Source: a virus
DNA: 20,115 nt
Virus record (IMG/VR): IMGVR_UViG_3300045286_000132
Location: 1-20,115 of that record
Direction: 5' to 3' (one strand)
In this document: piece after piece, positions 375-20,082 of the stretch
Position numbering within the stretch: the stretch's first letter is position 1
Layout of the letters: each line of letters starts with the position of its first letter
Notes under the pieces: generated by a model
The model's database searches: none
The model's input: only the letters and a program-made list of their open reading frames with translations
What the model was told of the DNA's origin: nothing
Program-made: the position numbers and the translations under genes

Positions 375-2864
375 ATGTTCAATCTACCGACATCGCTCAC
401 CCCCTGGGCGGCCTTTCGCCGCTTCCTGATCTGCGAGTTCGTTCCGCTACCCTCAGGGAAGACCGACAAGGTCCCCCTGCTGCCTTCCCTGCAAGGCCCG
501 CACGGCAGGCCCTTCGAGCGCGGGGACGCCCACGATGCCGCCACGCAGCTATCGCTACTCGAAGCCCAGGCGTGGCTCGAAGTCGCGCAGCAGACCTTCC
601 CGGCCCGTCAGTTCGGCGTAGGCTTTGCGTTCAATCAAGCCGACGGGTGGTGGTTCCTTGACATAGATCATTGCATCGTCGACGGGGCGTGGTCGCCAGT
701 CGCGCTGCAGATGATGCTCGAAGCGTTTCCGCGCTCGCCGGTGGAACTCTCGCACTCAGGGCAAGGCCTGCACATCTTCGGGCGAGGCGTGCCGCCGGTG
801 CACTCGACGAAGAACGGGCAATGGGGCCTTGAGCTTTACCACAAGGATCGCTTCGTCGCCTTGACCGGGCGCATGGTCCGCGAGGGCGATCTTTGCGCTG
901 ACTCAAGCGCAAACCTCAATTGGCTTGTTAGCACTTACTTTCAACCCAAGGTCGCAGGCGACACGGTCGACTGGCAGGAAGGCCCGGATCCCGAGTGGCA
1001 CGGCGAGCCTGACGACGATCGCCTGATCGAGTGGGCCTGCAGGCTGCCACCCGGCACCTGGGGCTCGGTCCCCTTCGGCGCGCTGTGGATGGCTGATGTG
1101 TCGGTGCTGTCGCAAGCCTACCCCGATGCACAGCGTGACTTCGATCACAGTCGGGCCGATCTCGCGCTCGCGACTGAACTGGCGAAGATGACGGGCTACG
1201 ATGGCCCGCGCATCGAGCGGCTCATGAGGCGCAGTGCGCTGGCCCGCGACAAGTGGGATCACCACGGCAGTTACCTGCGCGAACTGACGATCGGCCGCGG
1301 TGTGGGCGCCGCCCGGGAAGCAGCCGCACGAGCCCGGGCTGCCGGCAACGTGCCATGGCCGCGACAGGCCTGGGCACCCGTGCAGGTGGCGCCAGCAGCA
1401 CCGGCGACGGCGGGCGTGGTGCCTGAGCCGCCCGTTGCAGGGCAGTGGGTTGATCCGACCTACCGCTACGCTGTCGGCTCGTTCGTGCCCTACGGGCAGT
1501 TGCCCGACTACTGTCAAGGCTACAGCTACGTGCACGAGCGCGAAGAGGTCATTGACCCTGAAGGCCGCGCCTACAGCCACGCGCAGTTCAAGAACTGGCA
1601 CCTTGGGCGGGCCTGGGGCAAGGATCCGACGAATGCAGCCACCCGCGACGCCTGGGAAGCTGCAGTGCCCTTCTCGCAGCGATACGACCGCACTGTCGAG
1701 TGGTACGACGAGCCCTTCATGCGCGAGGTGCGTTTCGACGATCGTCGCTGCCTGAACATCGGCAAGCTGCCCGACGTCGCTACCCGACCTGCCACCCGCG
1801 AGCAGAAGCGTACCTTCATGCGTCACCTGCAGTGGCTCTTCCCGAACCGCGACGCCCGCCGGATCCTGCTCGCCCATATGACCCGCGCCGTGCAGCGCAG
1901 GGGCCACCGGATCGGGTGGGCGCCCGTGATCCAAGGGGCTGAAGGCACAGGTAAATCGCTCGTCGTCAACTTGCTGGAGTACGCGGTAGGCCACAGCAAG
2001 TGCGTGCTCGTGAACACCCCGCAGATCGCGAAGAACGGACAAATCGGCTTCAACGCGGATATGGAAGGCGCCTTGCTGGCAATCATGAACGAGTCGAAGC
2101 TGGCGGACGCCCGGGACGTGCTTGAGGTGCTGAAACCGTTCCTGACCGACGACCACATCCGAGTCGAAGGCAAAGGGATTGCCTCGAAGCGGGTGCGCAA
2201 CTTCATGAATTGGATCGCCGTCACGAACCATAAGACGGGCGTGCCAATCGAAGAGGGCGGCCGACGGTGGGCGCCTCTCTACACGGCGCAGCAACCTGAC
2301 TCGAAGTTCAATACAGCAGTGCCGTCGGCCTTCTGGAAATGGTGCCAGGACTCAGCGAACAGAGAAGCGGTCGCTCACTTCCTAGGCACTTTGCAGGTGG
2401 TTCGAGCCCCTGCTTGCGATCCGACGGCGGACTACACCCGAGCACCCGTCACCCCCGATACCGACGAAGCGATCCGCGAATCACTGGGTGCCTGGGAGCA
2501 GGAGATCCAAGAGGCGATCGACTCGGGCGTCGACGGCTTCAAAGGCGGCGTGATCTCCAGTTTGTGCGTCATGAAGCTGATCCCGCGGCTGAAGACCCGG
2601 GCCTTGAAAGCCACGATGGCCCGCCTGGGCTACGTGCCGCACCCCGCGCTGCCGGACGGTCGAGTGAACACCGTGCTCGATCTTTCGAAGTCGCTGGCGG
2701 ACCATCAACGGAAGCCGCGGCTCTATGTGCACCGCAGCAATGTCGCGGTCCTCGCCATTTCTGATCCCGCCGAAGTCTCGCGAGCGTACGTCAAGATCTG
2801 GAACGATCAGCCGGTATTGACAATGGTTCCTCCGCCGCCGCAACTCGGGGGTCATTCGGGGTAA
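375..2864 (+). CDS. Phage primase-polymerase/helicase fusion (NrS-1-like, DUF5906 helicase)
   Basis: An 829-residue replication protein. The N-terminal third looks like an archaeo-eukaryotic-type primase-polymerase: FLDIDH (residues 94-99, metal-binding D96 and D98), HSGQGLH (127-133), then LYHKDRFVALTG. Residues about 205-310 match the primase C-terminal helical region (ADLALATELAKMTG, then LARDKWD). The C-terminal half is an AAA+/SF3-type helicase: Walker A GAEGTGKS (about 521-528), a Walker B region ending in MNES (about 570-573), sensor-1 NWIAVTNH (612-619) and a candidate arginine finger RRW (630-632). It would unwind and prime phage DNA at the origin. ATG 375 lies directly after the TGA of a short in-frame leader and has a weak ribosome site, so an ancestral start at 345 is possible. 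A repeat-rich non-coding block follows immediately. Confidence 0.85.
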   Translation: MFNLPTSLTPWAAFRRFLICEFVPLPSGKTDKVPLLPSLQGPHGRPFERGDAHDAATQLSLLEAQAWLEVAQQTFPARQFGVGFAFNQADGWWFLDIDHCIVDGAWSPVALQMMLEAFPRSPVELSHSGQGLHIFGRGVPPVHSTKNGQWGLELYHKDRFVALTGRMVREGDLCADSSANLNWLVSTYFQPKVAGDTVDWQEGPDPEWHGEPDDDRLIEWACRLPPGTWGSVPFGALWMADVSVLSQAYPDAQRDFDHSRADLALATELAKMTGYDGPRIERLMRRSALARDKWDHHGSYLRELTIGRGVGAAREAAARARAAGNVPWPRQAWAPVQVAPAAPATAGVVPEPPVAGQWVDPTYRYAVGSFVPYGQLPDYCQGYSYVHEREEVIDPEGRAYSHAQFKNWHLGRAWGKDPTNAATRDAWEAAVPFSQRYDRTVEWYDEPFMREVRFDDRRCLNIGKLPDVATRPATREQKRTFMRHLQWLFPNRDARRILLAHMTRAVQRRGHRIGWAPVIQGAEGTGKSLVVNLLEYAVGHSKCVLVNTPQIAKNGQIGFNADMEGALLAIMNESKLADARDVLEVLKPFLTDDHIRVEGKGIASKRVRNFMNWIAVTNHKTGVPIEEGGRRWAPLYTAQQPDSKFNTAVPSAFWKWCQDSANREAVAHFLGTLQVVRAPACDPTADYTRAPVTPDTDEAIRESLGAWEQEIQEAIDSGVDGFKGGVISSLCVMKLIPRLKTRALKATMARLGYVPHPALPDGRVNTVLDLSKSLADHQRKPRLYVHRSNVAVLAISDPAEVSRAYVKIWNDQPVLTMVPPPPQLGGHSG

Positions 2865-3046
2865 GCATTCGGGGGCCTTCAGTTTCATAGGTAAAACCCC
2901 CGAACCCCCGAATCCCCCCGAATAAATTAGGTTCATGGCTCAAGAGTGAAATTAGTACATGTTGTTACAGTCAGTAAAATATCCTCGCGTACGCGAGGGC
3001 GCACGCGCGAAGAGTGGAAAATTCGGGGGTTCGGGGGTTCGGGGGG
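2843..3046. repeat. Iteron-like TTCGGGGG repeat block; candidate origin or packaging site
   Basis: The 8-mer TTCGGGGG occurs as three perfect tandem copies at 3022-3045. Its complement CCCCCGAA occurs as three near-tandem copies at 2897-2922, so the two arrays form an almost perfect 26-27 bp inverted repeat about 98 bp apart. Further G-runs lie at 2847-2851, 2858-2861 and 2871-2875, overlapping the end of the primase gene. The core between the arms is AT-richer (about 2921-2982) and contains a perfect palindrome at 2983-2998. The stretch 2865-3110 has no supportable gene. Its place between the primase-helicase and the small terminase suits a replication origin or a cos/pac site; the choice is inference. 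Confidence 0.6.
2983..2998. repeat. Perfect 16-bp palindrome CCTCGCGTACGCGAGG
   Basis: CCTCGCGTACGCGAGG equals its own reverse complement. It sits between the two arms of the TTCGGGGG inverted repeat and beside an AT-richer stretch containing GTAAAATAT. It could be a dimeric protein-binding site or part of an extrudable structure. No T-tract follows it. Confidence 0.65.
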
Positions 3047-3110
3047 AAGCCCGAAGTGAGATGTGATCGCTAGGTAACTGACCGATCTTTGCGCTAGGAT
3101 CGCGACCATC

Positions 3111-3920
3111 ATGGCCTTGACCCCCAAGCAGAAGCGATTCGCTGACGAGTACCTTGTCGACCTGAACGCGACGGCTGCCGCTGTGCGCGCGGGGCTCGGG
3201 CCGAAAGGCGGCTTCAGGACTCGCGAGACTGCAGCCCAGGCCGGCCATGTCATGCTCACGAACGCTGACGTAGCCGAATATGTAACAGCGCGACAGGCTG
3301 AGATGTCCGAGCAACTGTCGATCGACGCGAAGACGGTCATCAAGCTGTACTGGGACATCGCGACCGCGGACGCGAGCGAGATCGTAAGCGGGCTTAAGCG
3401 CCCCTGCCGCCACTGCTACGGGATCGGCTTTGCTTACCAGTGGAAGAGCGAAGCCGAGTACGCAGAGGCTTACGAGCGTGAGCTACTGGCTGCCGAGCGC
3501 GACAAGCGGCTGCCTGTGCTGCCTGACTGCAGCGGCGGCTTCGAGTACGACTGGCGCCTTGCCCCGAACCAAGACTGCCCGCAGTGCGAGGGCGAGGGCC
3601 GCCTCGAAGTCCGTATCAACGACACGAGTCGACTGACGGGCAAGGCCCGCCGCCTGTTCGCAGGCATCAAGCAGACGCGGCTCGGCACTGAAGTCAAGAT
3701 GCGTGATCAAGATGGTGCTTTGCGTGCGGTCGCTGCGCACCTGGGCATCACGCTCGAAAGCTTCCGCATGAGCGATCCGAGCAACGTGCCCTACACGGCC
3801 GACATGCTGGCGGAACTGGGCGAGGATGAACTCGAAGCGCTCGAAGCTGCCCGCCTGAAGTTAGACAAGGTACGCGAACTCGCGACGGCAGCGGTCGGCA
3901 AGGCGAAGGCGGTTGCCTGA
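3111..3920 (+). CDS. terS: Terminase small subunit with zinc-ribbon-like insert
   Basis: The N-terminus (LTPKQKRFADEYLVDLNATAA, beginning at residue 3) is the classic Terminase_2-type DNA-binding domain that recognises the packaging site and recruits the large subunit. The end of the recognisable family region, RAVAAHLGI, lies near residues 205-213. Between them is an insert with CRHC (C99, C102), C140 and CPQCEGEG (C156, C159), resembling DnaJ-type CxxCxGxG zinc ribbons. At 269 residues it is longer than the usual 150-180, and the insert accounts for much of the excess. ATG 3111 has AGGA at 3096-3099. The stop overlaps the large-subunit start, so the two are probably translationally coupled. 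Confidence is high for the family; metal binding by the insert is inferred. Confidence 0.88.
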   Translation: MALTPKQKRFADEYLVDLNATAAAVRAGLGPKGGFRTRETAAQAGHVMLTNADVAEYVTARQAEMSEQLSIDAKTVIKLYWDIATADASEIVSGLKRPCRHCYGIGFAYQWKSEAEYAEAYERELLAAERDKRLPVLPDCSGGFEYDWRLAPNQDCPQCEGEGRLEVRINDTSRLTGKARRLFAGIKQTRLGTEVKMRDQDGALRAVAAHLGITLESFRMSDPSNVPYTADMLAELGEDELEALEAARLKLDKVRELATAAVGKAKAVA

Positions 3921-5803: not shown

Positions 5804-5840
5804 AGGCGAGCACCCACTCGCCAGCCGGCCGGGTCCGTGC

Positions 5841-5854
5841 CACAATCCCGGCCA
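5841..5854 (+). promoter_or_regulatory. CACAATCC element, copy 1
   Basis: CACAATCCCGGCCAC lies about 30 bases upstream of the GTG at 5879. A closely related string, CACAATCCGGTCCAC, occurs at 20084-20098, also just before a ribosome binding site. CACAAT could serve as a -10 hexamer, but there is no convincing -35 at 17 bases. A shared promoter or regulatory element is a weak inference from position and similarity. Confidence 0.25.
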
Positions 5855-5878
5855 CGCAAGGCTTCGGAGGTGCGCCCG

Positions 5879-6877
5879 GTGGATCCGCTCGAACGAGTGC
5901 AGCGCTACCTGCGCAAGGGCGACGTGCCGGGGCACGAGTTCCACGGGAACCAATACTCGGGCGGTCAGAGCGGCGGGGCTGAACGGCCCCCGAAGCCCCG
6001 GATGGGGGAGAACGCTGACGAAGTGTTCCGCGCCTTCAAGACTGCAGCGATGGGCGGGGTTGTCGATTCACGTTACGGCATCCTTTACCCCGTCGCGCGG
6101 CACCCGGGCGGCGGCCCGACCTACACATTTCAGGGCAGCGGCAAACTCGGCATTGCGGGCGACAACGGCATGTCTGTTCGCGATGCGACTGCCGCTGAAG
6201 AAAACGAGTTTCACAGCGATCTCGGGCACGATCGACTGTGGATCTACACGCAGACTCGTCCAGGCTACGGCAGCGGCGGCAAAGCACAGCGGATGCTGAC
6301 CGAACTGCACAGCCCGAGCGGTAACGACTTCGCGCACCGTAAGGCAGTCGACGCCCACCTGCGCAAGGGCGACGTGCCCGGCCATGAGTTCCACGGCAAT
6401 CAGTGGACCGGCGGTCAAGGTGGCGGCAAGGGCGACATGTCCGAGGGTTACAAGATGTCGCCCGCCGACATCCCCCGTGCGCCTGCACGGGACGTCCCTG
6501 ACGGCGAAGCCGGCAAGCGCTTCAGGGAAGTCGAGGATCGGTTCGCGAACGAGATCGCCCATGTGGGTGTCGACGCGATGCTCGCCCGATACGCGGCGAT
6601 CAAGGAACCTGACGATACGAAGGGCGGCCGGATCATTAACACCGACACCTTCCGCGAACTATCTCCCGACTACCGCGCCGATCGTAGCAACTCTTCAGCA
6701 GTGCACGAGCCTGCAAGCTACCTTGCGAAGATCGCTCTCGCACGTGCCATTGCCGCGCTTCCGGTATCAGGGTTGGCGGTCTTTACGGCAGGTGGTTCAG
6801 GGGCGGGCAAGTCGAGTGGCCTCGATGCGCGACGCGCCGAAGAAGTAATCGCCAAGTTCCTCGGGGGCACGTTGTAA
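5879..6877 (+). CDS. Modular protein with two GHEFHGNQ motifs and a truncated zeta-toxin-like P-loop
   Basis: A 332-residue protein. GTG 5879 is chosen because GGAGG (5866-5870) is eight bases upstream; an in-frame GTG at 5837 lacks a good site. Two copies of KGDVPGHEFHGNQ followed by (Y/W)(S/T)GGQ occur at about residues 12-30 and 162-180. Between them is an unrecognised Gly-rich globular stretch. After the second copy come IINTDTFRELSPDYRADRS and SAVHEPASYLAK, which resemble the region preceding the P-loop in phage zeta-toxin-like kinases, and then AVFTAGGSGAGKSS (Walker A GGSGAGKS at 305-312). Only about 20 residues follow, so most of the kinase core and its catalytic residues are missing. 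The stop overlaps the portal ATG by one base. It is probably a head-associated polyvalent-type protein; enzymatic activity is doubtful. Confidence 0.65.
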   Translation: MDPLERVQRYLRKGDVPGHEFHGNQYSGGQSGGAERPPKPRMGENADEVFRAFKTAAMGGVVDSRYGILYPVARHPGGGPTYTFQGSGKLGIAGDNGMSVRDATAAEENEFHSDLGHDRLWIYTQTRPGYGSGGKAQRMLTELHSPSGNDFAHRKAVDAHLRKGDVPGHEFHGNQWTGGQGGGKGDMSEGYKMSPADIPRAPARDVPDGEAGKRFREVEDRFANEIAHVGVDAMLARYAAIKEPDDTKGGRIINTDTFRELSPDYRADRSNSSAVHEPASYLAKIALARAIAALPVSGLAVFTAGGSGAGKSSGLDARRAEEVIAKFLGGTL

Positions 6878-9462
6878 TGGCTGCCCGCGAGGACATGGGC
6901 CGCACGCTCGATTCGAGCTTTGTCAGCCGGGTCGCGGCGGGTTTGAAGTACATCGTCAGCGGGGTCGGCCCGGACAACTGGTTCGGCCCGATGCAGCCGC
7001 TGCAGCCCCAGGCGCAGCAGCAGGCTGAAGGCCGGGCCTTCGACTTCCCGGTCGGATACAACCTTCGGATCCAGCCCCGCAGCGAGGAAACGGTCAGCTT
7101 CGCGCAGCTTCGGCAGCTTGCCGATGCGTACGACCTGATGCGCCTCGTGCTCGAAACACGGAAGGACCAGATCGAAGCCTTCGAGTGGGAGATCGTCCCG
7201 AAGGACAAAGACGTCAAGCCTGAGACACGCAAGCAGGACATTCGCGCCGTCACTGAGTTCCTAGAGAAACCCGATCAAGAACGCTACTGGCCTCAGTGGC
7301 TGCGTTCACAGATCGAGGACATGCTCGTGCTCGATGCGATTTGCGTCTATCCGCGCCCTGATCGCGGCGGCCGGCTGTACGCACTTGAACTTGTCGCGCC
7401 GGACAACATCAAGCGTGTGATCGACGAGACAGGGCGTACGCCGCTGCCCCCGAGCCCGGCTTACCAGCACATCCTGAAAGGCATTCCGGCAGCGGACTAC
7501 ACGACAGACACATTCGTGTACCAGATGCGCAACCCGCGCTCGAACCGCATCTACGGCTTCTGCTTCGCGCCGGACATGGAGATTCTGACGCGAGCGGGTT
7601 GGAAGCGCGTGGGCGAGGCAAGCTACGACGATGAGTTCGCGACTCGTAACCCTGAGACGCACGTGTTCGAATGGCAACGGCCGGTAGCCGTGACTTCACG
7701 GGAGTTCGAGGGCGAACTTGTCCACTTCAAGGCGAAGTCGCTCGACATCCTCGTGACCCCAGAACACCGCATGCTCGTACAGTGCGATCGGCCTGATGTG
7801 GACCCGCGTGAGCGCACCGTGACGGCGGGCGAGCTTGCCAGACTCGACGCGCATTGGCGCGTGCCGATTGCCAGTGACGGATGGGCCGGCGAGCGGATCG
7901 AGTCGCGCCGGTTCGGTGGCGATCGAGTCGAGCAGATCAAGTCATTGCGACAAGATGGCCGTAGCTACATGCAGATCGCACGCGAGGTCGACTGCGCGGT
8001 TGGGACGGTTGCTGATGTTGTGACCGAGCGTTACGACTACACGCGCGATCGGGTGGAACTGAGCGGCGAGGACTACTGCGCGTTCATGGGAATGTACCTG
8101 TCGGAGGGCAGCATCAACAAAGGCCGCGTTGTGGTGATCAGCCAATCGTCGACTTCGAAGCACTTCAACAAGTTCAAGACTGCACTCAGCCGTATGTTCC
8201 GCTCGGCAACGCATGTTGATGGCGATTTCTCGATTTACAGCTTGTCGCTCGCAACGTACCTGAAGCAGTTCGGCCACTCGCACGAGAAGTTCGTGCCAGA
8301 AGACGTCATGAACGCTACGACCGAGCAGATCGAGACGTTCCTTGAATATCTTTTTGATGGTGATGCGCATCGCAATCCTCGGGGTGCGACGTACTACTAC
8401 ACCACGAGCAAGCGGCTTGCAGATCAGGTGCAGGAACTAGTTCAGAAAATCGGCAAGGCAGCTTCGGTGCGGCCCTGCGAATTGCGTAGCAGCATCCTGC
8501 GTGATGGGCGTGTCATCAGGAGTTTGCGCCAGCAATACCGTGTGTCGATCCTTCGTCGTCGCTACATGCACCCAGTGGCAGCCCGTGTGCCCTACCATGG
8601 CCCCGTGCACTGCCTGAGCGTGCCGAACCAGACTGTCTACGTGCGACGTAACGGATATGCCGCATGGACGAAACAGTCGCCCGTCGAACAGGTCATCACG
8701 ACCGTCAACATCGCGATCCGCCGGCAGATGTCGCAGTTGCAGTTCTACACCGAAGGCAACGTGCCTGAAGCAATTGCCCAGGTGCCGGACACGTGGACCG
8801 GGAAGCAGATCGCCGAGTTCCAGCTCATGTGGGACTCGATGAACGAGGGCAACACGGCGCAGCGGCGGAAGATGCGCTTCATCCCGTCGCTGAAGGACAT
8901 TATCTTTCCGAAAGACGCAGTGCTGAAGGACGAGTACGACGAATGGCTTGCGCGCATCGTGTGCTTCGCGTTCTCGATCAGCCCGACTGCCCTGATCAAG
9001 CAGGTCAACCGCGCCAGCAGCGAGCAGATGTCGGAGACGGCAAAGGAAGAGGGCCTGATCCCGCTGCTTCGCTTCCTCGAAGTCCACTTCACGGCATTGT
9101 TGCAGCGCCACCAGAACGGCAAGGGCTTGCGCTTCCGGTTCAAGATTCAGAACAAGGTGTCGCCGCAAGAGCAAGCTGCGATCGATGCCAGTGACATCGC
9201 CTCGAAGATCCGCACGCCTGATGAAGCGCGGGTCGATCGCGGCTTGGAGCCGATGCCGGAAGCTGAGCGTGAGAAGCACTTCCCCGCCGGCCCTGACCCG
9301 CTCGAACTTGCCCAGGTGCAAGCAAAGGCCCGCGCAGGGCAGCCCGTGCCGCCCGGTAAGCCCGATGAGAAGGAACCGCCTGTCGTCAAGTTCGAGCAGG
9401 GCGACATCTTCGTGACGGTGCACGGCGACCGTGCCGCGGTTCAACGGATGCCGCCGAAGTGA
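6877..9462 (+). CDS. Phage portal protein precursor interrupted by an intein
   Basis: An 861-residue precursor. The exteins total 489 residues, a normal portal length. The N-extein (1-228) contains RSEETVSFAQLRQLADAYDL, TRKDQIEAFEWEIVPKD and the run ending RSNRIYGF. The C-extein (from 601) begins SPVEQVITTVNIAIRR. Joining them gives YGFSPVEQ, a strongly conserved stretch of this portal family, so the intein sits in a critical site. The mature protein would form the dodecameric ring at the packaging vertex, working with the terminase before it and the MuF-like protein after it. ATG 6877 overlaps the upstream stop; the MuF start overlaps this gene's stop (GTGA). Function depends on splicing unless the intein is removed. 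Confidence 0.92.
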   Translation: MAAREDMGRTLDSSFVSRVAAGLKYIVSGVGPDNWFGPMQPLQPQAQQQAEGRAFDFPVGYNLRIQPRSEETVSFAQLRQLADAYDLMRLVLETRKDQIEAFEWEIVPKDKDVKPETRKQDIRAVTEFLEKPDQERYWPQWLRSQIEDMLVLDAICVYPRPDRGGRLYALELVAPDNIKRVIDETGRTPLPPSPAYQHILKGIPAADYTTDTFVYQMRNPRSNRIYGFCFAPDMEILTRAGWKRVGEASYDDEFATRNPETHVFEWQRPVAVTSREFEGELVHFKAKSLDILVTPEHRMLVQCDRPDVDPRERTVTAGELARLDAHWRVPIASDGWAGERIESRRFGGDRVEQIKSLRQDGRSYMQIAREVDCAVGTVADVVTERYDYTRDRVELSGEDYCAFMGMYLSEGSINKGRVVVISQSSTSKHFNKFKTALSRMFRSATHVDGDFSIYSLSLATYLKQFGHSHEKFVPEDVMNATTEQIETFLEYLFDGDAHRNPRGATYYYTTSKRLADQVQELVQKIGKAASVRPCELRSSILRDGRVIRSLRQQYRVSILRRRYMHPVAARVPYHGPVHCLSVPNQTVYVRRNGYAAWTKQSPVEQVITTVNIAIRRQMSQLQFYTEGNVPEAIAQVPDTWTGKQIAEFQLMWDSMNEGNTAQRRKMRFIPSLKDIIFPKDAVLKDEYDEWLARIVCFAFSISPTALIKQVNRASSEQMSETAKEEGLIPLLRFLEVHFTALLQRHQNGKGLRFRFKIQNKVSPQEQAAIDASDIASKIRTPDEARVDRGLEPMPEAEREKHFPAGPDPLELAQVQAKARAGQPVPPGKPDEKEPPVVKFEQGDIFVTVHGDRAAVQRMPPK
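7561..8676 (+). mobile_element. LAGLIDADG intein in the portal gene, C-terminal Gln
   Basis: A 372-residue in-frame insertion (precursor residues 229-600). Block A starts at C229 (CFAPDMEILTRAGWKRVGEA). Block B is VTPEHRM (T294, H297). A helix-turn-helix-like stretch (SYMQIAREVDCAVGTV) lies around residues 363-378. Homing-endonuclease motifs are FMGMYLSEGS (E410 acidic) and LEYLFDGDA (489-497, D494), preceded by KFVPEDV (block D). Block F is GPVHCLSVPN. Block G is VRRNGYAAWTKQ, followed by Ser +1. The terminal Gln replaces the usual Asn and Lys replaces the penultimate residue. Both LAGLIDADG acidic residues are present, so the nuclease may be active. It copies itself into intein-free portal alleles if so. 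Confidence 0.9.
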
Positions 9463-11323: not shown

Positions 11324-14068
11324 ATGAGTTTCGGCCGCCCTTTGCGCATGTCGCCGCGGGGCGGTCGGCCGTTGCCACCGGTCTACAGCCACAGCCCGTC
11401 GACGATCAAGGTCAGCATCGGCGAGAGCATGGGCGCGCTCGATCCGACGAGCGTGGGCGCTGCAGCGGGTGCTGCGATTGTCGAGTCGCTTGTCGCCCTG
11501 GGCGCTCAGAACGCAAGTGTGACGGCAACTTCGTTCGTCGGCATCATGGTTGAAGCGGTCACGGCTCTCGACGTGAAGTCGGCGGCTGCGGCTGCTGCAG
11601 CAGCAGTGGTCGAGTCGGCTGCAAGCACGTCGCCTGTCGGCGCTACCAGTTCGAGCAGTTCGTCGACTCCGTTTCTGAACGCTCGCACGGGGTTGCGCTA
11701 TACGACATTGAAGCAAGCAGTCGGTCTAGGGGGCGAAGGCTTTGTTGCCCAGTCAGGCGACACGATCAAGGTGGCGCCCGGTACCTATGTGATCACTGAT
11801 GTCAACAGTGTGGGTTGCCCGGCTATCCAGTCGGCAGGGGGCATCTCGTTTGGCGTCGAACTGCCGGCTTTGACGATCGAATGGGAGGTGCCTGGGCAGC
11901 CGGCCATCTTCGATATGTCGGCGTGGAACCCCGCTTACGGCATTCAGATGGGCTCGCCTTGCACGAGTCTAACCCTTCGTGGACTCCACTTCATTGGGCG
12001 CCAGGAGAATGGAAGCTGCGGCCTTGAAGCCAACACAGGATACCCGTACAACTCGGATTGGACGCTAAACCCCACGTGCACGCTGACGGTCGAATACTGC
12101 AAGTTCAAGCACTGGGCCGATGGTATCCTCATGGGTTACGGGATGACGCAGGCGACGCTGAATGTCCGGTACTGCTGGTTCGAGGATTGCACTCAGTATG
12201 ACGGTTTGACCCACGGTATTTATTGCTCGCCGGGTGCCCAGTGCAACGTCATCGGTTGCTTCTTCACTTCGACTGCAGCAGCGGTTGGCAGTCAGACCGG
12301 CGCAGGGCACTTCCTGAAGTCTCGTGCTCGCTCGACGACGGTCTACGGCAATTTGTTTGCGGGAGGGACGACAGGGGGTTGTGCTTGCTGCGTCGAGTTG
12401 CCGTGTGGCGGCGACGTGGACATCAGCGGCAACATCCTCTTGCACTATGGCTTTGCGGATCACGCGGACGAGAACCCGCCGATCAAGTACGGCTACGAGC
12501 AGCACGCGGGCGGCAATATCTCCGCAGACTCAGAGGTGCGCGGGTACTCGATCAAGATTGCGCAGAACACCATTCGCAAGGACGAACCGAACTGGGACAA
12601 CAACCTCGCTGACGGCATCGGCATGTTGTGGGTCGCGACGAACATGACACACTTGGACGGCTCACCAAGAAGCGCGGCCAGCGTGTCGAAGACGCTGCGC
12701 AACAACATCCTTGCCGGTAACCCGCTCGGTCCGAAGTCTGTCAGCGATTGGGGTAGCGGTGTCGGCACAGCGGTCGCGCGCAATACGGTTGACGACTCTG
12801 GTGTGTACTCGGGGTCTGCTATCAGCGGTAGCCCGGCCCTTAATGATGCGCAGTGGTCGTGGACGGCGGGTTTCACTGCACCGAACGGCCGAACAGACAC
12901 CTACCAGGGCGGGCTGCTTACGGCTGATCCAGCGTGGCGTCAGGGCATGGCGGCCAACACGTGGAAGACGGTTAGCACATCGCAACTTACTGATGTCGAC
13001 CCGGAAAAGAACGCGGCCATCAACCCCAATGGTGTGAGCAACGCACCTTGGCACGGTACGAACGGCCAACAGGCACACATCGGCGCCTGGGGCTCTACGG
13101 TGTGGGACGAGCCGAACCGTCGAATCTGGACCCCTATTGGCGGCGGCCACGGGAACTATGGGGGCAACGAGCCTTACATGATGGATTTGTCGGCGGGCTC
13201 ACCTGTGTGGGTGATGAAGCGCAACCCGTCAGGCGCCATCGGCAATCTCATCAACTTCAACGACGGACAAGAGTCAAGCGGCGTCTATTCCGACGGTCGA
13301 CCACGTTCGACCCACGTCTACAACAACATCGCCTTCGTCCCCGGTGTTGGGCCGATGATCGTGCGAATCGGATCGGCGTATCCCAATTCTGGTGGCAGCA
13401 ACAAGGTCTGGAAAGTCGACCAGTCGACGGGCGAGACGACCCTCGTGTTCGACTTGTCGTCACTGGGCGTCAACGTCGGCGGCAGCGTGGGGTCAGCGTG
13501 CTATGACCCGTCTCGCAATCGCGTTTACAGCATTGGGTCGGGGTCTGGTGTGCGCCCGGCCTACGTGGTGCCGCAGGCCGGTGCAGGGGCGTGGGCCGGT
13601 GGCGTACTGGCGGGTTCGGTCTACGTCAGCGACAGCTACCAGCGGCTCGTATACCTTCCGGCACCATATGACCGCCTGCTGGCGCTGCATGGCTTCTCGA
13701 CACCATCGATCAGTCTTATCCACCCGGACACGGGCGCGCAGACCGAGATCAACATCACCGGCTCTTACGCCAGCGGCTTCGATAGCGCGACGGGCGCAGG
13801 CGGCATGGTGTGGGCGCCGCGGCTCGGCAAGTTGCTTCTGTACGGTCAGACAAGTAACGCCGCGCAAATCTCGACCCTTACGCCGACCGACATCAATAAC
13901 TGGGTCGCGGGCGCGCTAACCGTCTCCGGCTCTAATACTCTTGTTCCGCCGGTCAGCATCTATGGCAATGCGACAGTGATGGGCACCTTCGGCTACAGCG
14001 ACGCGCTTCGCGGCTGCTACTACGTCCACAGCAACACTGACTCGGTGTACTTCTACGCAACTGAGTAA
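11324..14068 (+). CDS. Tailspike/adhesin with N-terminal repeats, beta-helix and beta-propeller-like domain
   Basis: A 914-residue protein. A short N-terminal anchor-like part (MSFGRPLRMSPRGGRPLPP) leads into three or four copies of an Ala-rich repeat (IVESLVALGAQ, MVEAVTALDVKSAA, VVESAASTSP), the same type that fills the 908-residue adhesin downstream. Residues about 125-480 look like a right-handed beta-helix (TLKQAVGLGGEGFVAQSGDTI begins it, then VEYCKFKHWADGI, VRYCWFEDC, NVIGCFF, TVYGNLFAGG, VDISGNILLHYGF). From about 570 a kelch/galactose-oxidase-like propeller follows (QQAHIGAWGSTVWDEPN, GGGHGNYGGNEPYMMDL, SACYDPSRNRVYSIG). It would bind and possibly degrade a surface polysaccharide. 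No catalytic residues can be assigned from sequence alone. Confidence 0.72.
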   Translation: MSFGRPLRMSPRGGRPLPPVYSHSPSTIKVSIGESMGALDPTSVGAAAGAAIVESLVALGAQNASVTATSFVGIMVEAVTALDVKSAAAAAAAAVVESAASTSPVGATSSSSSSTPFLNARTGLRYTTLKQAVGLGGEGFVAQSGDTIKVAPGTYVITDVNSVGCPAIQSAGGISFGVELPALTIEWEVPGQPAIFDMSAWNPAYGIQMGSPCTSLTLRGLHFIGRQENGSCGLEANTGYPYNSDWTLNPTCTLTVEYCKFKHWADGILMGYGMTQATLNVRYCWFEDCTQYDGLTHGIYCSPGAQCNVIGCFFTSTAAAVGSQTGAGHFLKSRARSTTVYGNLFAGGTTGGCACCVELPCGGDVDISGNILLHYGFADHADENPPIKYGYEQHAGGNISADSEVRGYSIKIAQNTIRKDEPNWDNNLADGIGMLWVATNMTHLDGSPRSAASVSKTLRNNILAGNPLGPKSVSDWGSGVGTAVARNTVDDSGVYSGSAISGSPALNDAQWSWTAGFTAPNGRTDTYQGGLLTADPAWRQGMAANTWKTVSTSQLTDVDPEKNAAINPNGVSNAPWHGTNGQQAHIGAWGSTVWDEPNRRIWTPIGGGHGNYGGNEPYMMDLSAGSPVWVMKRNPSGAIGNLINFNDGQESSGVYSDGRPRSTHVYNNIAFVPGVGPMIVRIGSAYPNSGGSNKVWKVDQSTGETTLVFDLSSLGVNVGGSVGSACYDPSRNRVYSIGSGSGVRPAYVVPQAGAGAWAGGVLAGSVYVSDSYQRLVYLPAPYDRLLALHGFSTPSISLIHPDTGAQTEINITGSYASGFDSATGAGGMVWAPRLGKLLLYGQTSNAAQISTLTPTDINNWVAGALTVSGSNTLVPPVSIYGNATVMGTFGYSDALRGCYYVHSNTDSVYFYATE

Positions 14069-15285: not shown

Positions 15286-18012
15286 GTGTCGGCTGCCCTG
15301 ACCCTTCTAGGGTCGATCACTGCAAGTACGACGAACAGCGGGAACAAGACCGTTACTGCTACGCCGGCAGTTGGCGATCTGATCTTCCTGCTGTGCGGTG
15401 CCACGGGCAACACTTCGGCGACCGCGCCGACCGACAACAACAGCGACGGGCTCGGGAGCTACACACAGGTCGGTTCAACCTTCCTGAAGGCGTCGAGTGC
15501 TGATGCCCTGACGGTCTGGGTGCGCAACAGCCTGATCGGCAGCGCAACCTCGACGACCTTCACGCACAACCCCGGCACAACGTCAGGCGGCTTCGTCGCT
15601 GCGGTCAAAGCGACCGGAATGTCGGTTGCAGGCCTGAAGGCAATTCGTCAGTCTGCAGGGCAGCAGAACGCGACCGCTGCGACAACGCCGGCCCCCGTGC
15701 TGCCGGCCACGCCGTATCGCGAGAACCCGGTCTTCGGCGCGGTTTTCAACGCCACGAACCCGGCGACCATGACGCCGCGGTCAAGCCCGTCCTACACCGA
15801 ACGGGGAGATACCGGATACAGCACCCCCACGAGTGGCTTCGAGGTGATGACGATCGACTCGGGCGAGACGTCCGCGACGATCACATGGGGCGGCACTTCG
15901 GCGAGTGCGTTCGCTTCTTTTGCGGCCGAACTGAACACGACGGCGTTCTTCGAGCCGCATGTGTCCACGACGCCGACGTCAGCACAGATGGACGCTGTCG
16001 CGTCAGTCAGCGAAAGCCTGACGGTCAATGACTCGACGACCGGCTCGTTACCTGCCAGCGTAGGCGCCCCTGCTTCTCTGCCTTCGATCGGTCTGGTCCT
16101 GCAGGCGGTAGTCAATAGTTACTCGGCGAACATCGCTGAAGCGATCGCTGCGCAAGATCTAATCTCGGCGCTACTGGCCGCAGCAGCCAGCGTGAGCGAA
16201 CCCCACGTGTCGACTGATCCGCAGTCGGTTGCGATGGTTGTAGCTGCAGCGATTAGTGAACCACACGTATCGACCGATTTGCAGGCGATCAACCCTGCGG
16301 CTGTGGTTAGCGAGACGATCGTTGCTCAGGATCTGCAATCGAGTGCGATGGCGGCGGCAAGCTCGGTCAGCGAGCCCCACGTGTCGACGGCGCCGACGGA
16401 CGGCAGCACGGGCAGTGCCTTCCTGGGCAGTGTCAGCGAGACGATCGTTGCCCAGGATCCGCAGTCGGTAGCGCTCGCAGCGACTGCAGCGGTCAGCGAG
16501 CCCCACGTGTCGACGAGCCCGGCCAGCGCCCAGGCCGCGGCAGCGGGCACGGTCAGCGAAGCGGCTGCGGTCGCCGACACGCTGAACGGCAGCGCTTCGA
16601 CGCCGGCCTCGGTCGACGCCCCTGCCCCGTTGCCCTCGATCGGTCTGGTGCTCGGGGCGCCGACGGCGTTCTCGAAGGCGGTCGTCGAAGCGCTCGTCGC
16701 TCAGGACCCGACTTCAGCGACGACGTCGACGTCAGCGTTCACGGGTGTGGTCGTCGAAGCGCTCGTCGCCCAGGATCAGCAGTCGGCGGCGCTCGCAGCG
16801 GCTGCAGCGGTCAGCGAAGCGGCAGCACTCACTGACGCGGCTGCGGCGGTCATCCCGGCAAGCGTGGGCGCTCCCGCCCCGCTGCCCTCGATCGGCCTGT
16901 TGCTGGCGGCTGCAGGCCCGCTATCGGCCAGTGTGGTCGAGGCGATCGTCGCCCAGGATCCGACCGCGGCAGCAGGCGCAGCGGCAGCGACGGTCAGCGA
17001 GCCCCACGTGTCGACCGACCCGCAGTCGGTTGCGATGGCGGCGGCTGGCGCGGTTGTCGAGTCGGCGGTTGTGCAAGACCCGGTCGCGGGGGCCCTTGCA
17101 GGCGCCTTCGCGGGCGCGGTCAGCGAGACGGCGGCTGTGCAGGACCTGCTCGATGCTGCTCTTGCGAGCACAGAAGTCGCGCCGCAGATCCCTGACGAAA
17201 TCTTGCCTTGGGTCTTCTACGCGGACCCAGGCTATAGCGCGCTGTACTTCGGTGGCGAACCGATCGGCACGCCGCCTGCGGTTCTGGGCGAGTCACTTGT
17301 TGATGTCAGCGAGTCGACGACGGTTGCTGATCTGCTGTCGGCTGCGGTGACGTTTGCAGTGAGTGTGACTGAAGCGCTCGTCTCCCAGGATCCAACTGCA
17401 GTGGTAGGGGCTGCAACGGCTGTGGTTGTGGAGTCGTATGCGTCGACCGATCCGCAGTCAGCCACGATGGCAGCGGGGGCTACGGTCAGCGAAGCAGCCA
17501 CGGTCAGCGACGTTCAGCAAAGTGCGTTGCCGGGCGTGCTCTTGGGATTCCAAACCGAAACGATCGTTGCTCAGGATCAATCTGCAACGGCGATGGCGGC
17601 TGCAGCGACGAGCGGCGAAAGCGCACTTCTGTCGGATGTTCTCTCTGCGGCTGTGGCGAGCCCTGTTGCTCTTGCCGAAGGCCTGGGCGCGGCTGATGCA
17701 GCGTTCGCTACCTTGGCAACGGCCTGTACCGTTTCCGAAGGCCTGGGCCTCGGGGACCTTTGCGACGCGACAGTCGGTGCTGGCGGGGTGTTCTTCGCCT
17801 CGATCATCGAAACGCTCGATGTCATCGCATCTGCGCAGGCTTCCGCGGCTGCAGTAGCCGCCTTGATGGAAGCGCTAGTAAGCGCTGACGTTTCTCAGGC
17901 ACAATTCGTCGGGGAGCTAGAGGAAGACCCGCGGTTCACCGTAGTGGGATCTGCTTCGAGCTATGAGGTATCCGCGCCCACGGGCACGTTCAACATCGTG
18001 AAGGAAGCTTGA
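15286..18012 (+). CDS. Large repeat-rich virion adhesin-like protein
   Basis: A 908-residue protein. GTG 15286 has CAGGGGG (about 15274-15280) upstream. Residues 1-220 form a beta-rich globular domain (VGDLIFLLCGATGN, ALTVWVRNSL, SGGFVAAVKATGM, SATITWGGTSA). Residues about 220-865 hold roughly 27 imperfect repeats of about 20 residues with the core V(S/V)E(P/A/T)-x-V-x-x-D-x-x-S-A-x-A-A-A, for example VSEPHVSTDPQSVAMA and VVEALVAQDPTSA. Three longer inserts share GAPAPLPSIGLVL. A non-repeat island (DEILPWVFYADPGYSALYFGG) lies around residue 640. The end (TVVGSASSYEVSA, FNIVKEA) is typical of phage proteins paired with the next small gene. It is likely an extended virion fibre or surface protein; the exact role is unknown. 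Confidence 0.6.
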   Translation: MSAALTLLGSITASTTNSGNKTVTATPAVGDLIFLLCGATGNTSATAPTDNNSDGLGSYTQVGSTFLKASSADALTVWVRNSLIGSATSTTFTHNPGTTSGGFVAAVKATGMSVAGLKAIRQSAGQQNATAATTPAPVLPATPYRENPVFGAVFNATNPATMTPRSSPSYTERGDTGYSTPTSGFEVMTIDSGETSATITWGGTSASAFASFAAELNTTAFFEPHVSTTPTSAQMDAVASVSESLTVNDSTTGSLPASVGAPASLPSIGLVLQAVVNSYSANIAEAIAAQDLISALLAAAASVSEPHVSTDPQSVAMVVAAAISEPHVSTDLQAINPAAVVSETIVAQDLQSSAMAAASSVSEPHVSTAPTDGSTGSAFLGSVSETIVAQDPQSVALAATAAVSEPHVSTSPASAQAAAAGTVSEAAAVADTLNGSASTPASVDAPAPLPSIGLVLGAPTAFSKAVVEALVAQDPTSATTSTSAFTGVVVEALVAQDQQSAALAAAAAVSEAAALTDAAAAVIPASVGAPAPLPSIGLLLAAAGPLSASVVEAIVAQDPTAAAGAAAATVSEPHVSTDPQSVAMAAAGAVVESAVVQDPVAGALAGAFAGAVSETAAVQDLLDAALASTEVAPQIPDEILPWVFYADPGYSALYFGGEPIGTPPAVLGESLVDVSESTTVADLLSAAVTFAVSVTEALVSQDPTAVVGAATAVVVESYASTDPQSATMAAGATVSEAATVSDVQQSALPGVLLGFQTETIVAQDQSATAMAAAATSGESALLSDVLSAAVASPVALAEGLGAADAAFATLATACTVSEGLGLGDLCDATVGAGGVFFASIIETLDVIASAQASAAAVAALMEALVSADVSQAQFVGELEEDPRFTVVGSASSYEVSAPTGTFNIVKEA
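15950..17880 (+). repeat. About 27 imperfect ~60-bp repeats encoding VSE...D...SA units
   Basis: DNA-level recurrence is strong: GAGCCCCACGTGTCGAC-type strings recur near 16197, 16373, 16498 and 17000, GTCGTCGAAGCGCTCGTCG at 16681 and about 16751, and GAGACGATCGTTG near 16311, 16438 and (as AAACGATCGTTG) 17559. The left half of the array is more homogeneous than the right, where units have diverged. Such an array can expand or contract by recombination. Confidence 0.8.
16057..16905 (+). repeat. Three 45-bp copies encoding SV(G/D)APA(S/P)LPSIGL
   Basis: Copies at 16057-16101, 16609-16653 and 16861-16905 encode nearly the same 15 residues and are embedded at different spacings (552 and 252 bp) in the main repeat array. 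They look like insertions carried by one repeat type and duplicated with it. The proline content suggests an extended linker. Confidence 0.75.
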
Positions 18013-18013
18013 G

Positions 18014-18304
18014 ATGCTGCCCCCGAAGGATGTCGAAGAGTGGGTCGTCGTCACCTTCAACTTTCAACCATTGCTGACGCGCCTGGGCCTGTCTGACACG
18101 AGTCTTTCGGACGTCAACGTCGAGACTGGCCGCGACGAAGGCGACGGTCAGCTTGTCGCCGACGGTGCGCAGCAGGTGTCAGGCGTCAAGGTCAGGCAGC
18201 TTTACAAGGCGGGCACACGGGGGCAGATCTACGATGTCGCATGCCTCGCGACCCTGTCGAATGGTGAACGGCGGCGCCTGTGGGACCGCCTGCCGGTGGC
18301 GTGA
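18014..18304 (+). CDS. Small conserved phage virion-type protein
   Basis: A 96-residue protein of a pattern often found beside structural genes: MLPPKDVEEWVVVTFNF, LLTRLGLSDTSLSDVNVE, GVKVRQLYKAGTRGQIYD (starting near residue 56), and a closing RRRLWDRLPVA. These proteins usually follow a gene ending in the kind of C-terminus seen in the preceding adhesin, and such pairs lie in head or head-tail-joining regions. ATG 18014 has GGAAG (18003-18007) upstream and begins one base after the preceding stop; its TGA shares a base with the next ATG (TGATG). Function is not known; a head-tail completion or connector role is a reasonable guess from context. Confidence 0.55.
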   Translation: MLPPKDVEEWVVVTFNFQPLLTRLGLSDTSLSDVNVETGRDEGDGQLVADGAQQVSGVKVRQLYKAGTRGQIYDVACLATLSNGERRRLWDRLPVA

Positions 18305-20082
18305 TGCCGATCCATTCCTGCACTCTTCCTGACGGTCGTTCCGGCTTCAAGTGGGGCGATTCAGGCAAGTGCTACCCCACGCGCGAGCAGGCTGAAGCCC
18401 AGGCGCGAGCAGCGTATGCAAACGGGTACACCGGTAAGGCTGATCTGCTCGGCCGGTTGCGCAAGCCCGAGCCCAGGCCTGCACCACTCGCTGCGTTGCT
18501 GAAAGCGAACCTCGATCAGGCTGCGCATCAGGCCGCTACGAGCGTGTTCAACCTGAAGAAACCCCCAACTGAAGCCCAGGCGAAGGCAGGCAACTACCCG
18601 AAAGGGCATTGGTCGCTGAAGGGTCTGAAGTTCACGATCGAGAACCCCGAGCACTCGCACCGGCGCCCGGAGTGGCCCCCGCTGTCAGCGCACTACGGCT
18701 ACATCCGCGGCACTGTGGGCGCCGATGGTGATCAGGTCGACGCCTTCCTGCGGCCGGCTACCGACGAGCATTGGGATGGCCCGGTCTTCGTGATCGACCA
18801 GAACGACGAACAGGGCGAGTTCGACGAGTTAAAAGTGATGATCGGGTGGGACAACGAGCGCACGGCGGTGCATGACTACCTGAAGAACTATCCGCACGGC
18901 TGGAAAGTTGGGGAAGTAACTGAACTGACGCTTGATCAGCTAAGGCAGTTTCTTTCGACTGGGGGCGGCGCGGAGCCTCTTAAGGGGCAGCTCCCGGCTA
19001 ACGAACATATTGCGAACTGCGCTCCAGGTCACGCCCATGCGGCGGCCAATCAACTCCCACGACAAGCCTTGCTGTCGAAGCTCGATCGCAAGATTCAGGT
19101 CCCACTTGGGCCCGGTCATCAAGTGGTGGCGCTGATGCTCGCGCTGCGAGAGAATCTCCAAGTTAGCAAGGTCGTTGTTCAGCCCGTTACCGTCGCGATG
19201 GTGGACAACTTCCTTGCGCGTAAGCGCTCGGCCGATGGCAGCTTCCATGATCAGGCGATGCTCAAATCGCTGTCGTCGGACCCCGCCGACTACGACGCTG
19301 ATGAGACGGTACGCCGTCTTGTGGCGTGGAAAGTAGCGGATGTGCCCGCCAGTCGAGGGGCGCCCCATGAACTGCACCGTGTTGCTGAACTTGCGGTCAG
19401 TATAACTGACGATTCATCAAAGTCAGTCAGCAAGGGTGACGTGCCGGGGCACGAGTTCCACGGCAATCAGTGGACCGGCGGCGAGGAAAGCGGCAAGGGC
19501 GATCCGCCTGCACCCGGCCAGAAGTTCACGGTCTATCGGGTCGGTACCGAACCGAGCCTTGCAATGCGCAACGCAGGCAACGCTCAGGGTGTGGCCGACT
19601 TCCTCGCGCATGCTGACGACCCGTTCGGCCCCACCGTGGCCGCCAAAGGCACGAACCTCATGGCTTTCGAGGTGTCTGTCGATCAGCCGTTCGGGGAGTA
19701 CGCAACGCTGAACCACGGGCGCGGGTCGGCGAAGGCCCCCGGCAGGTGGTCCGACCAGCGAGGGGGTGTCAAGTATTCGTTCCCCGAGACTGGCTTCTCG
19801 CATCGGCTGATCGCATCGGTGCCGATGTCTCAGGTGCGTGACGCCATGAAGGCCCGCGGCTTTGCGGATTTCGACGAGTCGGGCTCGATCGCAGGCGCAC
19901 AGGTGCTTCGAGACATGATCAAGCCGAGAGCAACGAAAGCCGACCTGATCGCCCGCCTGGGCAAGGAATGGACGCAGTCCGCATCGGCAACGAGCGGCAT
20001 CACCTCGTACGGGCGTACGCGGGCCCGACGAGAGAAGTTGAAGCGGATCAAGCGCTCACTTCCCAATTCACCCGCGCAGTAG
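18304..20082 (+). CDS. Polyvalent-type protein: inorganic-pyrophosphatase-like domain, GHEFHGNQ motif, unknown C-terminal domain
   Basis: A 592-residue open frame. ATG 18304 is chosen over an upstream GTG because of the TGATG overlap. The N-terminus (HSCTLPDGRSGFKWGDSGKCYP) is a short cap common in phage proteins. Residues about 105-215 match the inorganic-pyrophosphatase-like domain described from phage polyvalent proteins: SAHYGYIRGTVGADGDQVDAFL (128-149, metal-type D141, D143, D146), VFVIDQND, then GEFDELKVMIGWD. Residues about 213-372 are the antisense of an HNH gene and probably not native protein. KGDVPGHEFHGNQWTGG follows (about 377). The C-terminal domain starts KFTVYRVGTEPSL and has GNAQGVADFLAHADD and FGEYATL; a faint ADP-ribosyltransferase-like look is not enough to assign it. 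It may be a virion-borne effector. Confidence 0.6.
   Translation: MPIHSCTLPDGRSGFKWGDSGKCYPTREQAEAQARAAYANGYTGKADLLGRLRKPEPRPAPLAALLKANLDQAAHQAATSVFNLKKPPTEAQAKAGNYPKGHWSLKGLKFTIENPEHSHRRPEWPPLSAHYGYIRGTVGADGDQVDAFLRPATDEHWDGPVFVIDQNDEQGEFDELKVMIGWDNERTAVHDYLKNYPHGWKVGEVTELTLDQLRQFLSTGGGAEPLKGQLPANEHIANCAPGHAHAAANQLPRQALLSKLDRKIQVPLGPGHQVVALMLALRENLQVSKVVVQPVTVAMVDNFLARKRSADGSFHDQAMLKSLSSDPADYDADETVRRLVAWKVADVPASRGAPHELHRVAELAVSITDDSSKSVSKGDVPGHEFHGNQWTGGEESGKGDPPAPGQKFTVYRVGTEPSLAMRNAGNAQGVADFLAHADDPFGPTVAAKGTNLMAFEVSVDQPFGEYATLNHGRGSAKAPGRWSDQRGGVKYSFPETGFSHRLIASVPMSQVRDAMKARGFADFDESGSIAGAQVLRDMIKPRATKADLIARLGKEWTQSASATSGITSYGRTRARREKLKRIKRSLPNSPAQ
18940..19368 (-). CDS. HNH homing endonuclease, antisense within the polyvalent gene
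   Basis: A 142-residue protein on the minus strand. It has the full HNH_3-type signature: EHRLIMEAAIGRALTRKE, then VVHHRDGNGLNNDLANLE and ILSQREHQRHH. Key residues are H56, H57, N65, N69 and H78. The C-terminal third (AIELRQQGLSWELIGRRMGV, about 97-116, then TWSAVRNMF) looks like a helix-turn-helix for target binding. The ATG at 19368 is preferred to the GTG at 19377, though neither has a strong ribosome site. Conserved motifs make this, not the + strand frame, the evolved coding sequence here. Free-standing HNH genes spread by cutting related phage DNA at their insertion site. Nothing in the flanks shows a group I intron. Confidence 0.85.
   Translation of the reverse strand: MGRPSTGGHIRYFPRHKTAYRLISVVVGGVRRQRFEHRLIMEAAIGRALTRKEVVHHRDGNGLNNDLANLEILSQREHQRHHLMTGPKWDLNLAIELRQQGLSWELIGRRMGVTWSAVRNMFVSRELPLKRLRAAPSRKKLP
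19396..19410. promoter_or_regulatory. Palindrome GTCAGTATAACTGAC upstream of the HNH gene
   Basis: Six-base arms GTCAGT and ACTGAC flank ATA, 28 bases upstream of the HNH ATG. On the minus strand it contains TATACT, a good -10 hexamer, but no matching -35 at 16-18 bases. It could be the HNH promoter/operator or a remnant of the insertion junction. Confidence 0.35.

Follow-up and report, generated by a model that had tools for sequence, protein, structure and literature searches.

A bidirectional array of short repeats around an AT-rich core is very likely, judging from sequence comparison, a replication origin of the iteron type known from Staphylococcus aureus pathogenicity islands (SaPI) and phage-inducible chromosomal islands (PICI), read by the phage's own primase-helicase. 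The array lies in a 20,115-bp virus fragment (IMG/VR record IMGVR_UViG_3300045286_000132, positions 1 to 20,115; this whole stretch is called the window) that carries the terminase genes (small subunit, TerS; large subunit, TerL), the portal gene and the head genes of a tailed phage. A sequence-only reading of the window had pointed out the repeats and offered three candidate roles for them, a replication origin, a cos or pac site, and a protein-binding or transcription control region; the first of these is strongly supported by comparison with relatives.

The iteron array and its core

The array lies in the 246-bp gap separating the primase-helicase gene from the TerS gene. Three exact TTCGGGGG iterons are mirrored by three exact CCCCCGAA iterons, as the sequence-only reading had described. 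Its long inverted repeat was also found (arms fully complementary over 19 nt, or 95% complementary over 21 nt), with a spacer between the inner sets that measured 99 nt (2923–3021) and not 98 bp. The repeats do extend back into the end of the primase gene: the first two outer iterons, CTCGGGGG and TTCGGGGT, each with one mismatch, lie inside its last codons (2844–2862), and the third outer iteron is the seventh exact TTCGGGGG. This overlap with a primase-helicase gene that encodes an NrS-1 helix bundle domain (HBD) and a DUF5906 helicase argues for the origin reading.

Exact TTCGGGGG occurs only twice elsewhere in the window. The heptamer TTCGGGG was found 14 times compared to 3.2 expected, with eight of the 14 copies in the array stretch. 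The best local bidirectional 7-mer count was 8, and the maximum was 4 in 100 dinucleotide shuffles of the whole window; once the array stretch was removed, the window held no bidirectional 7-mer cluster at the cut-off.

The AT-richer core stood up to measurement. The AT-richest 60 bp of the window start at 2921 (70% AT vs the window mean of 37%). The stretch beside the right iteron set was in the top 0.01–0.1% of the record for AT-richness in the window, PEi21, B2, SppYZU01, L226, JD001 and LAPP1, and in the top 0.4–0.5% in Scuro, 4316 and NrS-1; in L216, L037, L184 and L175 it was not among the most AT-rich of the record. In the window, as in several complete genomes, no stretch of the record is richer in AT than the core, which favors the origin reading. 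The GC-rich right part of the core holds the perfect 16-bp palindrome noted earlier, which is real, yet 0.8 such palindromes are expected per window, so that as a signal it is within chance. Alternating purine-pyrimidine runs (CGCGTACGCG at 2986–2995, GCGCACGCGCG at 2999–3009) occupy the same part. Such runs were unusually long for the record in the window, L171, L227, L216, L175, L178, L037 and L048 (p about 0.003–0.01), and were absent from L226 and L027; L216, L037 and L175 thus have them in place of a core that is among the most AT-rich of the record. The idea that the G-rich strand folds into unusual structures found no support beyond hairpin folding: the three-tetrad G-quadruplex pattern (loops up to 7) was absent from both strands of the whole window. 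Terminator-like hairpins were found on the – strand only.

Table. Coordinates, strand and basis of the proposed origin, its parts and the flanking genes in the window.
Feature	Positions	Strand	Basis
Proposed replication origin: iteron sets flanking an AT-rich core	2843–3055	.	array, core; relatives with the same place and layout
Outer iterons: CTCGGGGG 2844–2851, TTCGGGGT 2855–2862, TTCGGGGG 2868–2875	2844–2875	+	
Left inner set: three exact CCCCCGAA iterons, 2897–2904, 2905–2912, 2915–2922	2897–2922	–	
AT-rich core, candidate melting region	2923–2982	.	AT content; likewise in JD001, LAPP1, PEi21, SppYZU01 and B2
GC-rich right part of core: palindrome (2983–2998) and alternating purine-pyrimidine runs	2983–3009	.	
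Right inner set: three exact TTCGGGGG iterons, 3022–3029, 3030–3037, 3038–3045	3022–3045	+	
Primase-helicase gene, 829 aa, NrS-1 HBD (PF22763) and DUF5906 helicase; proposed initiator	375–2864	+	
Part of the primase C-terminal domain (about aa 697–786), predicted winged-helix-like topology; candidate iteron reader	2463–2732	+	weak structural matches
TerS gene (Terminase_2), which opens the packaging module; outside the proposed element	3111–3920	+	

Arrays of the same layout in related phages

The nearest counterpart was found in phage NrS-1 (AB746912), whose primase belongs to the same family. There AAAGTGT/ACACTTT in both orientations (12–14 copies by k-mer count) takes up the gap at 17052–17458, which separates the primase stop (17051) from TerS (17459), and all 8 exact copies of GGTTACACTT in the genome lie inside this gap. 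The NrS-1 gap thus shares with the window the order primase–array–TerS, the inverted iterons and an AT-rich stretch; it differs in its motif, AAAGTGTAACC, and in being annotated with an open reading frame (ORF), NRS1_29, rather than as an origin. The array covers this ORF (L237:17055–17456) almost wholly, and a genuine gene is unlikely there. In vitro work on the polymerase of NrS-1 has dealt with its template recognition and its hexameric ring (PMC7102993), and the site it recognises in vitro is TTTGGTTA (PMC8718748); we took the template motif TTTGGTTA or GTG as the criterion of recognition by an NrS-1-type primase-polymerase (PrimPol). The sole exact TTTGGTTA in the NrS-1 genome lies within the iteron array. 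In the structural paper the count is two copies at mid-genome, and its authors suggest that the recognition sequence there 'may serve as the origin' (PMC7102993); our exact search gave one copy. The papers that we consulted describe no iteron array in NrS-1. Because the gap holds an array that encloses the recognition site of the primase, NrS-1 argues for the origin reading of the window as well.

Lactobacillus phage phiadh (NC_000896), which served as the positive control, has a deposited rep_origin at 13084–13469 that starts where its primase gene (D5_N, HBD, DUF5906) ends. Sets of GTGTATA/TATACAC flank an AT-rich core in it. It shares with the window this start at an HBD/D5/DUF5906 primase gene's 3' end and the inverted iterons around an AT core, whereas its motif (GTGTATA) is different, its inner orientation is opposite and TerS does not follow directly. 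A deposited origin at the matching place, with iterons and an AT core, is a further reason for our reading.

Relatives conserve the layout and place of the array, as read from their genomes, while its sequence changes. The sequence-only reading had held that an unrelated sequence at this place in related phages would speak against it; the sequence there does differ, yet layout and place are conserved, and a refutation on sequence alone would mislead. The layout is present in NrS-1, Stenotrophomonas phages Silvanus and B2, Acinetobacter phage 4316, Listeria phage LP-101 and several IMG/VR contigs, with more degenerate arrays in Klebsiella phage JD001, Edwardsiella phage PEi21 and others. In the primase–TerS gap, L171/L174 carry three ATACACC facing three GGTGTAT, L227 carries TTGGGGTA sets and L027 a weaker TAGTAAA set. 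Silvanus and LP-101, examined after the rule had been formed, showed significant arrays 3' of the primase (0/300 shuffles); that they fit a rule stated beforehand supports the origin reading, as does 4316, which fits by eye (AGTGACGTT x2, AT core, AACGTCACT x2, between a D5-type helicase gene and TerS). In L018, L021, L037 and L050 it is a VapE or DUF5906 helicase gene that carries the array at its 3' end, and TerS lies 2.5–5 kb off; this position at the helicase gene and not at TerS likewise points to an origin.

In Rhizobium phage RHph_TM3_3_10 the primase gene is followed by no gap, and the stretch examined there held no array. Arrays in L164, L173, L212 and L217 were left uncounted, their spacings being typical of coding repeats. 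DNA scans for the exact motif returned one-sided tandems only, in unrelated contigs. As separate observations, regularly spaced ATTAGTA/TACTAAT pairs occur at L128:2365–2699 and L135:7238–7490, with no primase-helicase match nearby, and bidirectional repeats lie 3' of or near a helicase of another type (PriCT_2 + AAA_25) at L088:3231–3486 and L077:3121–3430, which may represent another origin class or be unrelated.

The proposed initiator, known systems and neighbouring genes

By sequence, the solved relatives of the primase-helicase are the NrS-1 primase and 7ola, the latter matched by phmmer at residues 78–199 only (E 9.2e-10). Foldseek matched 7ola, titled 'Primase-Helicase in SaPI5', and 7pds (E about 6e-7). 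The nearest predicted folds are those of the NrS-1 C-terminal region, AsfvPrimPol, poxvirus D5/E5 and SaPI5 PriRep. A single-protein scan of IMG/VR with the primase returned no close relative, and the closest contig, L016 (portal 78%), begins too near TerS to include the gap.

SaPI Rep reads its iterons by its C-terminal domain (PMC7581432), and SaPI/PICI origins are organised as pri-rep-ori, a layout held unique to PICIs (PMC6092414, which also describes a plasmid test for the PICI EcCICFT073). The window has in common with them an array immediately 3' of the initiator gene, two inverted inner sets of three copies that flank the AT-richest 60 bp, and an initiator related in sequence and predicted fold to the SaPI5 primase-helicase. 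It differs in lying in a tailed phage beside TerS, in its iteron, TTCGGGGG, and in a core with a GC-rich alternating purine-pyrimidine part. The record is not a PICI, since it carries TerS, TerL, portal and head genes; the origin type alone is in common. The Cch2 helicase of the staphylococcal cassette chromosome mec (SCCmec), of the same broad type as the helicase of the window, was shown in vitro to bind repeats that lie shortly after its own gene (PMC7581432); its site has three 5-nt direct iterons, unlike the two inverted sets in the window.

On our reading, the primase-helicase encoded directly upstream would bind the TTCGGGGG iterons on either side of the core, probably via its C-terminal domain. 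Two hexamers may assemble there as mirror images of each other, melt the core and then unwind the DNA in both outward directions, so that replication would fire bidirectionally, with the primase domain priming on the strands exposed by unwinding. A wider proposal, which we regard as tentative and rather doubtful, is that PrimPol-helicase tailed phages share one origin family in which the helicase and primase domains read the same array, and that in GC-rich members the AT-rich melting region is aided or supplanted by an alternating purine-pyrimidine, Z-DNA-prone stretch of the core.

Several observations concern other genes of the window. The TerS protein contains a CxxCxGxG-type cysteine pair (CRHCYGIG, CPQCEGEG) like that of DnaJ zinc domains, and similar pairs occur in the TerS of L027, L171 and L227. 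The portal gene (6877–9462) has a ~370-aa insert (residues about 229–600) with a LAGLIDADG domain that looks like an intein; the insert is present in L016 and absent from the portals of L011, L012 and L013. The motif KGDVPGHEFHGNQ(W/Y)(T/S)GG occurs twice in ORF 5837–6877 and once in ORF 18280–20082, which has an inorganic-pyrophosphatase domain. Within the latter, plus-strand ORF, a minus-strand ORF (18940–19377) reads like an HNH homing endonuclease and is possibly an inserted gene. The 908-aa ORF 15286–18012 contains many degenerate repeats, e.g. SEPHVSTDPQSVAMAAA and VVEALVAQD.

Weighing the origin against other explanations

Similarity among the iteron motifs tracked the primase, above all its C-terminus, and not TerS, which argues for an origin read by the primase-helicase. 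In a Mantel test on 12 phages, which are non-independent and whose motifs were hand-chosen, motif similarity correlated with primase identity (rho 0.51, p 0.023) and with identity of the C-terminal 230 aa (rho 0.59, p 0.010), compared to rho –0.27 (p 0.98) for TerS. This composition of the test is one of several points that weigh against our reading. A clear, non-coding-looking array was found in the 3.5 kb downstream at only 8 of the 76 distinct related primase loci. In JD001, PEi21, LAPP1, Scuro and B2 the array stands before TerS, at least 4 kb from the primase; in the first four, the genome's densest GGGGTA cluster lies just before TerS, and their arrays were recognised with this motif taken from relatives, the motif-free search being non-significant or weak (JD001, k=7, p 0.03). 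The primase C-terminal domain was modelled with a pLDDT (predicted local distance difference test score) of 82 and an element order that is winged-helix-like; structural matches for this winged-helix reading were weak, with Foldseek E values no better than 0.38 and VIA Z scores of at most 5.8, and we do not claim it as shown. GC skew, suggested earlier as a check, was not decisive and was not used: its minimum fell near 600 in the 20-kb fragment, and in complete genomes it bore no consistent relation to the arrays.

A position directly upstream of TerS is common for cos or pac sites. An array in this position, as found in the window, NrS-1, L171, L227, L175, B2, JD001, LAPP1 and PEi21, could thus mark a packaging start at which TerS binds the repeats and TerL cuts nearby. 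We consider this unlikely, and the comparison spoke against the earlier suggestion of a cos or pac site. The closest TerS proteins, those of L018 (45% identity) and L021 (42%), have no array before their genes; theirs lies at the 3' end of a VapE helicase gene, 3–5 kb away. TerS relatives with other replication genes and no adjacent PrimPol (Itty13, LASTA, BcepMigl and Parlo) show no array, the GGGGTA motif is common to phages whose TerS are near-unrelated, TerS similarity does not follow the motif, and the phiadh rep_origin was deposited at the matching place. A combined site, with replication starting at the iterons and TerS using the same or an overlapping stretch, would suit an element that fills the gap between replication and packaging modules in many relatives; it appears slightly less probable still, as no sequence feature besides the iterons and core is shared with TerS and some arrays are kilobases away from it.

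The location between the primase and the late genes would also suit a site at which a phage regulator controls transcription at the boundary of early and late genes. No sigma-70-like promoter was found, which left this earlier suggestion without positive support, and the AT-rich core with inverted sets matches origins, with a motif that tracks the primase; we judge such a role very improbable. One-sided TTCGGGGG tandems do occur in unrelated contigs, which would suit a meaningless tandem-repeat expansion. The two-sided layout, however, was found in none of the 47 other contigs that carry the 16-mer, and it recurs with different motifs at the same place in relatives, so that the comparative data largely refute this explanation and leave it hardly any probability.

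The preferred reading, an iteron origin read by the primase-helicase, places the element in a known kind of origin; its use lies in the placing of origins for PrimPol phages. NrS-1 gains a concrete candidate origin from the comparison. For PrimPol-helicase phages in general, a rule for finding origins emerges: inverted short repeats around the AT-richest stretch, 3' of the primase-helicase gene or before TerS. A layout formerly held unique to PICIs would thereby extend to full phages, and this bears on the sharing of replication modules between satellites and phages.
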